A stretch of 64,000 nucleotides of DNA from Larus michahellis (Eukaryota > Chordata > Aves > Charadriiformes > Laridae), in contig NC_133910.1 in NCBI RefSeq assembly GCF_964199755.1, forward strand, positions 13,028,711 to 13,092,710, in the 5' to 3' direction. This document shows positions 13,398 through 53,472 of the stretch, one piece after another. Position 1 is the stretch's first letter. Each line of letters begins with the position of its first letter. The notes under the pieces were generated by a model, which saw nothing but the letters and a program-made list of their open reading frames with translations, searched no databases and was not told the DNA's origin. The translations under genes and the position numbers were made by a program.

Positions 13398-13420
13398 GTA
13401 AGAAATGGCTTTGTACTTAC

Positions 13421-13480
13421 GGTTGCAGCCCGTGGTACCCTGAGGTACAAGGCAATGCGCAGGATCTCCCAGCGAGCCAT
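13421..13480 (-). pseudogene. CEL: CEL exon 1 relic (rest of gene absent)
   Basis: On the minus strand, ATG at 13480 and a GTAAGT donor at 13415-13420 frame a 60-bp exon coding 20 residues (MARWEILRIALYLRVPRAAT). It matches exon 1 of the intact CEL genes apart from a net 6-bp in-frame loss and several substitutions; the signal-peptide core is less hydrophobic (R8, R14). Only 85 bp separates it from the shared upstream block, versus 188 bp in the intact copies, and the TATA box is in the missing part. No exon 2-11 follows to the left. It is best read as the remnant of a fourth CEL that was lost. Confidence 0.85.
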
Positions 13481-14033
13481 GGTGACTGCACACCTCAGGA
13501 GCCAGTCCACAAGTGCAGCTTCTGTGTATGTACACACGTATCCAGGAGCACGGGATGTGTTACCGTATGACAGCCCTGCAGATGTTGCCTTTGTGGGCTG
13601 GAGGCCAAACCCAAGGAAATATCTCAGTCTAACAAAACTCCAGCAAACGTTAAAAAATGCTGAAGCCTTGAGAAGCGTCTCACAAGAGCAGGAGGCTGAA
13701 ATCAGACTGAACCATGCGTTAGAGCGTATTATCAGCCACTAACGAGAAACCTTGCACTCGTAACACACTGGGGAATACACAAGGTTTAGAAAATGCCAGC
13801 AGATCCTTAATCTCTGTGATGGGGTGGTAACAATCCAGACAGCAATGGCAGACTAATGAGTGGCCAACCTCTGTGGGCCTGAAGCTCTGCCCCATTGCCT
13901 GCTTCCTTCTGTCCTTGCTAACTGCTGGGGAAGTCAAAATGGAATTGAGAAGTGCAGCAGCTAGTGAGGACAATCTACACTACATCCCGCAGAAGGAATT
14001 ATTCTCTGACAGAAAACATTTTTTCCTGCTGGC

Positions 14034-14039
14034 TTTATT
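14034..14039 (-). terminator. GTF3C5: GTF3C5 poly(A) signal AATAAA
   Basis: On the minus strand this AATAAA lies about 500 bp downstream of the GTF3C5 stop. It falls inside the segment deleted from the three truncated copies. Confidence 0.7.
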
Positions 14040-14542
14040 TCTGAGATCACGAGCAAGGCTCGATGCTGACGTCATGGCACAGTATTTCATTCCCCTTAGG
14101 TGAGCAAAAGGGCAGCACCCGCCTTAGGGCCTCCAGTGGCACTAGACTGCTGCCCCAGCACTCTGCAGGCACCTTTTCTGTTTTCCACACGGCCACCAAC
14201 CCAGCCAAGGTGAACTTCCCACACATGGAGAGATCCAGGAATGCAACTTCTCCTCTTTTCTGGTGTATTACCAGCTGGTTTGGATTCAGGGATCTTTCTT
14301 GGGAGTTTGTTGAGCTTGCCTGAGGGCTTATTAGCCAGCAATTATGAAAGCGTAGACACTGGCTCCCTAACATTTGGAATGACGCCCCTCAGCAGGCACC
14401 ACAGCCAGTGCAGACAGGTCATCGGCATCTTAGTGCAAGTTCTTCTTTCCCACATCCCAGGCATGGTGGCTGAATCCTCAGCACTTAAGGAACAAGAGCA
14501 GAGACGATTCTGTTCCAACAGCAGCCAGACTGCTCACTGAGT

Positions 14543-50400: not shown

Positions 50401-50631
50401 TGAGAGACTTGGCCGTGTTTAGGGCAGGAGAACACCCTGCCTCGGCTGTCACGGTCTGCAGGCCCTCTTTCATGGGCTCCAGACCAGACGTAGCAGGAGT
50501 TTGCGTCTTCAGAGAGGAACAGACAAAATGTCTTGCAAAGCCTTAAGAAGTGCTGTTGTACTTACGGTTGCAGCCCGTGCTACCCCGAGGTAGCAGCACA
50601 AGGCAAAGCACAGGATCTCCCAGCGAGCCAT
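44490..50631 (-). CDS. CEL: CEL copy C, bile-salt-activated lipase
   Basis: Third complete CEL. Exons on the minus strand: 50566-50631, 49904-50054, 49345-49467, 48803-49000, 48572-48702, 48022-48129, 47685-47802, 46655-46841, 45896-46099, 45222-45419, 44490-44700; 564 aa. The catalytic triad and cysteines are intact. It shares A255, Q537, Y538 and N559 with copy B. It alone has Y27 (H in A and B), R66 (Q in A and B) and D385-L386 (N-I in A and B). The two 3-bp deletions relative to B are intronic. Confidence 0.96.
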
Positions 50632-50676
50632 GGTGACTGCACTCCTCAGGAGCTAGTCCCCAGGTGGAGACTTACG

Positions 50677-50684
50677 TATATATA
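50677..50684 (-). promoter_or_regulatory. CEL: CEL-C TATA box
   Basis: TATATATA at the same spacing from the CEL-C start codon as in copies A and B. Confidence 0.75.
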
Positions 50685-51227
50685 GCTACGAGTGACGCTG
50701 TGTGTCAATGCCACGACCCAGAATTGGGTCTAAGGTAAACCAGTGGAGCCTCTACACGCTTGTCCTTCAGTAGGCTGAGGCCAAACCATGGCTGAGGTAG
50801 ACTGGCGTCACTGTGTGAGAGCCCTGCAGATGTTGCCTTTGTGGGCTGGAGGCCAAACCCAAGGAAATATCTCAGTCTAACAAAACTCCAGCAAACGTTA
50901 AAAAATGCTGAAGCCTTGAGAAGCGTCTCACAAGAGCAGGAGGCTGAAATCAGACTGAACCATGCGTTAGAGCGTATTATCAGCCACTAACGAGAAACCT
51001 TGCACTCGTAACACACTGGGGAATACACAAGGTTTAGAAAATGCCAGCAGATCCTTAATCTCTGTGATGGGGTGGTAACAATCCAGACAGCAATGGCAGA
51101 CTAATGAGTGGCCAACCTCTGTGGGCCTGAAGCTCTGCCCCATTGCCTGCTTCCTTCTGTCCTTGCTAACTACTGGGGAAGTCAAAATGGAATTGAGAAG
51201 TGCAGCAGCTAGTGAGGACAATCTACA

Positions 51228-53472
51228 CTACATTAGGAGTGTATCCTAGAGGTGAAAAAAGAAAACCAACAATGAACGGAGGGCAAGCACCCTGCACAAT
51301 ATCCCTGGCTCAGAAACAGAGGTGCTGGACTGGTGTGTGAGAGGCAGGGTGGTCTTTGGGCTATGCTGACTTGAGCAAGGTGGGGAGAGGAGAGCTGTCA
51401 CAGCAACCAAACCCTTTAACCTGGAAAGAGGGAGATGTGATCTGCTCTTAATGACTGGATGCCAGCTCTGTCACGGATTTATTAGATGACCTCAGAAAGT
51501 CCTTTCCCTCGCCTTACTCTCTGCAAAATCAGAGCAGGGGAATCCTCTGTCCCAAAGTCTGAGACCAAGCGTCCTGCACAAGATGAAGAGAACCAGGAAC
51601 ACCCAGGTGACGCTCCCTTGCTCTGCCTCCGAGCAGCCCCAGACAGGCACAGGGGCAGATGTACAGACTCACCATGTAATAGGCCAAATACGGCAACAGA
51701 AGTTCCAGCTTGGCGAGGTGAACGCTGATATTGGCTTTTACTGCATTCTGAGACCAGACAGGAGGGACTTCAAAGAGCTAAAATATTATAGAAACAACGG
51801 TGGAACTGAATACAGCCGTCCCAGTAGTGTCTACTGAGACTTGTTATATCAGTCAGACTTTGCATTTGCCCATTGTTATCCTCAGAAAAACAGACAATGT
51901 CCACCCAGCAGCCAGACTATTCTCCAAAAGGGCTGGAGAGCCCTGCAGAAGGCACATCGCATAATTCGTTTTCAGAACACGGACAACTCTACGGTAGAAA
52001 ATTTCACAGCCCTCAGTGGCATTTCAGGTACATGCCACTCACTCACTTTGCTGACGTGACATTGTCATGCCTTGACAAAGTCTTATCCCATCCATCATTT
52101 CAAGGGGAGCCGCAGCTGTTCAGGACACCAAAAATTCCTGTATCCCTGGCAGAATATGCCAGTAGAGCCCTTCTCGTTTGATAGATTAGAGAGCAGAAAA
52201 AGCAAATGCGTGTTTTGCTAAGGGCAAAGGACAGCTGATATCCCACTGGAGTGGAACCCAAAGGCCTGGATTCAGGTTCCTGGCCTAATTACACAGGCCC
52301 ATATCTCACTTGTTAACAAGGTTAAACAGGAAACGTAAACACAAAACGTTCAGAGAAGCCAAGACTAGTTACAACCACAACAATTTTCAGCAAGGTCTGC
52401 ATGCCACAGTACCGTGCTCAAGGCAGGACTATGGCACGTACCTTTCTCAGCTCTTCCTCCGCCTTTTTGTCCACAGGGTTGGTGCACACTTTCTTCCAGG
52501 TCTGTACAGCAGCATCCAGGGGTTTAGTTGGGATTTCTTCATCATCAAAGTTCACAAAGATAGCGTTGTGCGGGCGACGGGCCCTGCTGAGGCCAATCAG
52601 GTTCTCACCAGACACCTGGGGATTGTTGTATCCCTCCCTAAGAAAGGGGGAAAGGATCGGGTTTGCTTTCTGCCTGTGGCACACATGGATTCGGGGCCTT
52701 CACGGGAACATGCGAAAATGGAAGTTTGTGCCCCAGATTTTGGAAGAGAAGGGACTCAGCCATGTGAGCAATGGGTTGGTTTATCTTTGGCCACACCTCC
52801 CTATGGATTTTGGAATCACATCCTGGTACCGTAAAAGACTCCTGTGACATCACTGAGGCAAGAAAATTTAAATTTGAAGAAACCCCAGCAAAGCTACATC
52901 CAGTTGCACAATGACAGAGGTCCCCTGTACTATCCGACAGAAAACCCTCAGGCAATCGGCTACTGGTTTGTAAGAAATGCGTTTGCAGCACAAAAGGCTT
53001 CACCCTCTGCATTTCCTCTACTGTAATTACTGCAGCTCAGTAGGGTCCAGGGACAAGCCAAGATGGAAATGCAGTTTAGATTAATTTTTTTTTCTTGTAA
53101 AGTGCCGATGAAGGACTACAGTGAGAAAATGAAAGATGTTTCTTGTGGGAGATCTCACAGATTGTTCCGGCAAAACCAGCCGTGGGCCAGGAGGGAACAG
53201 GTCCCATGAACGTGGTCACAGGAGCATATGGCATTGACTCCTGCACGTTCCAGCCCACTGGCAGCAGGCAGAGAGCCGGGCTCACTGCACCCCACGCTGC
53301 ACATGCTGTGCTGGGGGAGGCAGTCATCTTCACCACATCTCCAGGTCCCCTCACCTGGCAAGGCCTCAAGTGGACTTTTGCCGAGGTTTCTGCTGCCAGG
53401 CAGTTTCTCAAGTGTGCCCGCCTCTGTTGTGCCAAACCAAGAGGGACAGAACAGAACAGGGCGGCAGCTTAA
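51228..53472 (-). pseudogene. GTF3C5: Truncated GTF3C5, unit C (exons 4-5 only)
   Basis: Only exon 4 (52442-52637) and exon 5 (51673-51777) are present, with the same downstream deletions as the other truncated copies. To the right, similarity stops at about 53,472 in intron 3, so exons 1-3 and the promoter are missing. It cannot make the 296-aa short form without an upstream exon from elsewhere; a non-functional fragment. Confidence 0.88.

Follow-up and report, generated by a model that had tools for sequence, protein, structure and literature searches.

Organisation of the locus

We analysed a window of 64 kb from the genome of Larus michahellis (C19:13028711-13092710, in a genome of 1.405 Gb and 616 contigs); the window is the whole stretch of DNA analysed, contains no N letters, and holds an array of genes for bile-salt-activated lipase (CEL) together with one complete and three truncated copies of GTF3C5. 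The array consists of three units arranged head to tail at a near-constant period, with aligned lengths of 11,266, 11,079 and 11,073 bp, and each unit contains an intact CEL on the minus strand. CEL, GTF3C5 and the remnants of both all lie on the minus strand, between RALGDS and a gene of the GFI1/GFI1B type. By self-BLAST, 21792-42400 pairs with 32871-53473 at an offset of 11,079 bp (99.70% identity over 20,609 columns, 55 mismatches), and at the left end of the array 18981-21588 pairs with 30247-32854 at 99.31% identity. A preliminary description of this DNA had given the 11,079-bp offset as constant; it is not strictly so, since two 3-bp gaps make unit 3 shorter by 6 bp. That each of the three units carries a complete CEL of 11 exons, as also described there, is borne out by the self-BLAST, the exon counts and the intact frames of 564 amino acids.

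The alignment of the three units has 64 variable sites, four of which are inside a 16-bp filler where the units are not truly homologous. Over 32871-41325 (8,455 columns), units 1 and 2 differ at 21 positions, units 1 and 3 at 34 and units 2 and 3 at 27 (0.25-0.40%). This small number of variable sites and the exchange tracts in GTF3C5 described below uphold the earlier suggestion of very recent expansion and/or homogenisation.

Exon copies were counted with blastn (E<=1e-3, with no other filter) in the window plus 10 kb to its left and about 20 kb to its right. CEL exon 1 is found four times (one copy at 84.8%) and CEL exons 2-11 three times each. Exons 1-3 of GTF3C5 are present in three copies, exons 4-5 in four and exons 6-11 in one; the fourfold level anticipated earlier for exon 4 is confirmed as sequence copies. 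Based on a search of the genome DNA with CEL, in which 40 of 705 candidates were scored, additional diverged CEL copies elsewhere in the genome appear unlikely: the 40 comprise the three full CEL places, an exon 1 remnant and 36 matches to a repeat of ~70 bp.

The three intact CEL genes

The intact genes are copy A in unit 1 (22332..28479), copy B in unit 2 (33411..39558) and copy C in unit 3 (44490..50631), all on the minus strand. Each has 11 exons with GT/AG at every splice site and encodes 564 amino acids with no internal stop. Residues 21-554 of copy B align with bile-salt-activated lipase (PDB 1akn_A, E=8.6e-266), and all six PDB sequences found at E<=1e-200 are named bile-salt-activated lipase or cholesterol esterase, which identifies the gene as CEL. 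In the alignment with 1akn_A, copy B keeps the GESAG, NDMDGH and ADHADD contexts and the bile-salt motif GANFLXNYLY. We take the first three to be the contexts of the catalytic Ser, Asp and His. None of the coding differences among the copies falls inside the catalytic or bile-salt motifs, and no C-terminal repeat region is seen in the translation of copy B. The same bile-salt motif and the catalytic triad are described in fish bsal (PMC9386070). Chicken CEL is close in length, with 556 amino acids, and also has 11 exons (PMC7035288).

The coding sequences of the three copies differ at nine positions, in codons 27, 66, 255, 310, 385, 386, 537, 538 and 559: eight are replacement changes and one is silent. 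Neutrality is not rejected for these changes (P=0.24-0.35), so that the 8:1 ratio is not evidence of positive selection among the copies; two pairs of the replacement changes also sit in adjacent codons and may lack independence. As far as the sequences indicate, the nine differences reveal neither clear constraint nor clear diversification.

Concerning the upstream region, the final 60 bp before the CEL ATG, in which the TATA box lies, do not differ among the three copies. Four segments were compared for variable sites: the segment 39559-41325 has a single one of the 64 where 10.2 are expected (P=4e-4), and the remaining three segments have as many as expected. For units 2 and 3 alone, none of 33 sites is in this segment (P=0.005). 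The longest stretch without variable sites is 1,401 bp (P=0.011 under uniform spread). Since the three CELs have near-identical upstream regions and the same TATA box, the likeliest effect of the copies is probably more pancreatic bile-salt-activated lipase, not new enzymes.

The repeat of ~70 bp mentioned above is located in CEL intron 9 (34505-34580 and its equivalents); it matches contig C38 at many places and other contigs at some. C38 is repeat-rich and W-chromosome-like. At C38:16886248-16886805 there is an old mitochondrial fragment in repeat-rich surroundings, which we take to be cytochrome b; its neighbours are presumably CR1-like reverse-transcriptase remnants.

Complete and truncated GTF3C5, and the remnant CEL

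The sole complete GTF3C5 is at the RALGDS end of the array (14543..21562, minus strand) and has 11 coding exons for 512 amino acids. Its exons 1-5 match 'General transcription factor 3C polypeptide 5' in PDB (8clk_E, E=2.3e-151), and the two exon matches to the Pfam domain Tau95 reported in the genome (seven candidates, all scored) are both in this gene. The boundaries of exons 7-11 were set by the human protein, GT/AG sites and an open frame. Three fragments, also on the minus strand, are found in the repeated units. Fragment a (28655..32854) contains exons 5 (29521-29625) to 1 and only the first bases of exon 7, without exons 6 and 8-11; fragment b (39734..43933) has the same structure. Fragment c (50807..53473) contains exons 5 and 4 only, and the right end of the array falls in sequence corresponding to intron 3 of the complete gene. 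No functional GTF3C5 with all coding exons is found within the repeated units, which have exons 1-5 or 4-5 only.

Set against the complete gene, 933 bp including exon 6 are missing from the units (with 5 bp in place), as are 3,196 bp that span almost the whole of exon 7 together with exons 8-11. For the latter we considered whether the left GTF3C5 had instead gained 3.2 kb by insertion (13986-17181) and rejected this: in the complete gene the stretch contains exons 8-11 and the larger part of exon 7, and therefore the units have a deletion. In the fragments, five codons of exon 5 carry replacement changes and none a silent one, which looks like what a dead gene would show; exon 4 carries two silent changes.

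The block of GTF3C5 exons 1-4 (18981..21588, minus strand) is common to the units at 99.3-99.5% and is the likely site of unequal exchange. Before the ATG of the complete gene there is a CpG-rich block of 203 bp (21589..21791, minus strand), instead of which the two internal fragments have 16 bp. This filler (32855-32870 and 43934-43949) resembles the outcome of end-joining repair. Being common to both internal fragments, the 203-to-16-bp replacement probably predates their duplication. The frame through exons 1-5 of the fragments meets no stop and finishes in phase 0, the phase in which CEL exon 2 starts, so that splicing the two together would make an in-frame GTF3C5-CEL chimera; the fragments capable of it (the two with exons 1-5; the exon 5 donor is at 29521 in fragment a) have the upstream block replaced.

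A fourth CEL is present as a remnant on the RALGDS side (13259..13532, minus strand). It had been described as reduced to exon 1, and the exon 1 region is indeed there (13395-13532, 83% identity), but a trace of intron 1 survives too (13259-13362, 69.5%). The TATA-like sequence of the intact copies is absent from it. Because identity is only 83% and 69.5%, the remnant appears to stem from a much older duplication than the units. The former label of a CEL-GTF3C5 array does not fit this layout: the units hold truncated GTF3C5, the one complete copy is at the RALGDS end and the remnant CEL belongs to that older event.

Exchange between the fragments and the functional GTF3C5

The functional GTF3C5 and fragment b differ by 36 mismatches in 3,606 aligned bases, and these are unevenly spread. 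The longest clean run between the two is 1,307 bases, compared with a permutation mean of 405, and none of 2,000 permutations reaches 1,307; the mosaic is beyond chance by this measure, as gene conversion would produce. The mismatches against the fragments crowd at the tract edges: there are four within 13561-13571 and then one over the following 414 bases, and none in 18467-18581 and then 12 over 104 bases. Against fragment b, the tracts (3,388 bases) hold nine of the mismatches and the edges (218 bases) 27, a comparison that is descriptive only, as the edges were drawn post hoc. Judging from the alignment, identity tracts with diverged edges are the mark that a recent exchange leaves on old duplicates.

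Flanking genes and gene order

The 3' part of RALGDS is on the plus strand at 3101..10120 (ends approximate), where open reading frames are found, with exons of the RA domain near 9.75-10.1 kb; two RA-domain exons, joined, match PDB RALGDS chains (1lxd_A, 3.9e-32). A minisatellite of the CACCCTGTATCCGACACTG-type (6003-7832, with periods of about 19, 28, 47 and 75 bp) is located inside RALGDS and is probably intronic. The right flank (53474..64000, no strand assigned) shows no repetition within the window, and to that extent agrees with its earlier description as single-copy. Zinc fingers that end in a C-terminus of the GFI1/GFI1B type begin ~0.6 kb past the right edge of the window (L026:554-1775, minus strand). 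A PDB search with this stretch gave matches to 38 zinc-finger sequences, Gfi-1 (2kmk) being included but not first; from synteny we take the gene to be GFI1B.

The working order at this locus is RALGDS-GTF3C5-CEL(x3)-GFI1B. It appears to be swapped because the published order is GBGT1-RALGDS-CEL-GTF3C5-GFI1B (PMC5571153). The neighbours of chicken CEL are named as TSC1, GFI1B, GTF3C5, RGL4 and GBGT1 (PMC7035288). The remnant CEL marks the CEL position of the published order, and its position and the order difference fit a tandem duplication of the pair followed by reciprocal loss.

Proposed history of the array

We consider it fairly probable that the locus arose by an old duplication, reciprocal loss, recent unequal crossing-over and gene conversion, with more CEL enzyme as the probable outcome. 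An old tandem duplication of the GTF3C5-CEL segment would have produced GTF3C5-CEL-GTF3C5-CEL, and the RALGDS-side CEL and the GFI1B-side GTF3C5 would then have decayed, swapping the working order. An old duplication with later loss is suggested because the exon copy numbers change in steps (CEL four, then three; GTF3C5 three, four, then one), and the loss seems reciprocal because the complete GTF3C5 adjoins the remnant CEL and the intact CELs adjoin truncated GTF3C5. Two age classes are suggested by the identity of the remnant set against the divergence of the units. Unequal crossing-over, through homology between the 5' block of the functional GTF3C5 and the decaying fragment and later through whole-unit homology, would have recently tripled the unit of GTF3C5 fragment plus CEL. 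Gene conversion would have copied tracts from unit to unit, and likewise between the functional GTF3C5 and its fragments. The avian neutral rate is about 1.9e-9 per site per year, at which the units would be roughly 0.7-1.1 million years old, if conversion has left the clock unreset.

GTF3C5 is the gene for an RNA polymerase III factor, and its functional copy might itself act as the last repeat of the array, with exons 1-4 recombining with the fragments. As the locus is now arranged, a crossover in exons 1-4 that shortens the array would give this copy the 16-bp upstream version, and the reciprocal lengthening product would keep it whole. If the 203-bp block were needed for GTF3C5 expression, contractions at this place would be selected out and expansions kept, a one-way ratchet on CEL number driven by an essential neighbour; we regard this reading as very doubtful.

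Alternative explanations

A partial assembly artefact, in which the true haplotype has two CELs and the copy of the other haplotype has been placed in tandem as a third, is improbable in our judgement. The divergence of the units is near the avian allelic level (the Ural owl has a heterozygosity of 0.2%; PMC12455985), the structure of unit 3 equals that of unit 2 and the evidence is the assembly itself; on the other side, the window is free of N letters, and the 40 matches from the genome search with CEL (of 705 candidates, 40 were scored) point to no second locus. An internal fragment that has exons 1-3 and the 203-to-16-bp replacement cannot come from a haplotype with one CEL, where the left GTF3C5 would bring the full block and the right fragment no exons 1-3; at least two CELs per haplotype are therefore needed. 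Two CELs per haplotype are, from the sequence structure, well supported, and three are less so. Concerning age, the array could instead be an old multi-copy one homogenised by concerted evolution, without recent expansion. Old remnants alongside near-identical tracts, the evident exchange and the nearly invariant CEL upstream region agree with this, but the CEL gene has 36 variable sites where a uniform spread predicts 35.5, as for a recent common origin. Whole-unit conversion is still compatible with that count, and we think an old homogenised array rather unlikely.

Whether the copies matter for dosage is a separate question, and here neutral copy-number variation with no dosage benefit could be the answer, although we lean against it. 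The 8:1 replacement to silent ratio and the similar density of changes in coding (9/1,695) and non-coding (55/9,378) sites show no sign of constraint, and vertebrates have often gained CEL copies (PMC5571153). Against neutrality, all three copies retain intact frames, splice sites and promoters as well as the active-site motifs, although there may have been too little time for decay. Several points also weigh against the history proposed above. The coding differences among the CEL copies do not have the pattern of strong purifying selection. In the block 18981-21588, conversion and plain recency are not fully separable. The swapped order is measured against the general order given in one paper (PMC5571153), and if birds generally share the order found here, the reciprocal-loss step is old and shared.

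Comparison with known systems

In the open-licence literature, of which only the top of some longer result lists was covered, neither this array nor any bird array containing GTF3C5 fragments was found described. The preliminary description, which knew of none, holds for the array as such, but tandem CEL gain at the locus has been published for other vertebrates (PMC3891661, PMC5571153, PMC9386070). In a survey of 88 vertebrates, including 24 birds, CEL gain is seen in 14 species and, like here, in the same gene block; the available portion of that source gives counts only, with full and partial genes pooled (PMC5571153). Most fishes have two to five copies of bsal, in tandem or on other chromosomes, with a conserved gtf3c5 neighbour; unlike here, the bile-salt motif is altered in some copies, and the available portion of the paper does not mention GTF3C5 fragments in units (PMC9386070). 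In Myotis, CEL has multiplied by duplication at the GTF3C5-RALGDS locus and gene 1 has 11 exons, as here; there are six copies, some truncated or with stops, over several scaffolds (PMC3891661). By contrast, the present array has three intact and near-identical copies, each in a unit that also holds a GTF3C5 fragment, and its sequence is uninterrupted by N letters.

Human CEL and CELP likewise arose by duplication at this locus and have recombined with each other, and the second copy is a pseudogene. Both genes are named in PMC5571153. Here, by contrast, there are three intact copies, and the pseudogene is a remnant of old date. CEL duplication in vertebrates is already known; what sets this locus apart is that its history of duplication, loss and recopying is unusually readable. 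Duplication, order-swapping loss, truncation of a passenger gene, threefold expansion and exchange with a working housekeeping gene can be followed in a single stretch without N letters, and the locus offers a testable case both of dosage of a lipase and of recombination between a gene array and a neighbouring housekeeping gene.

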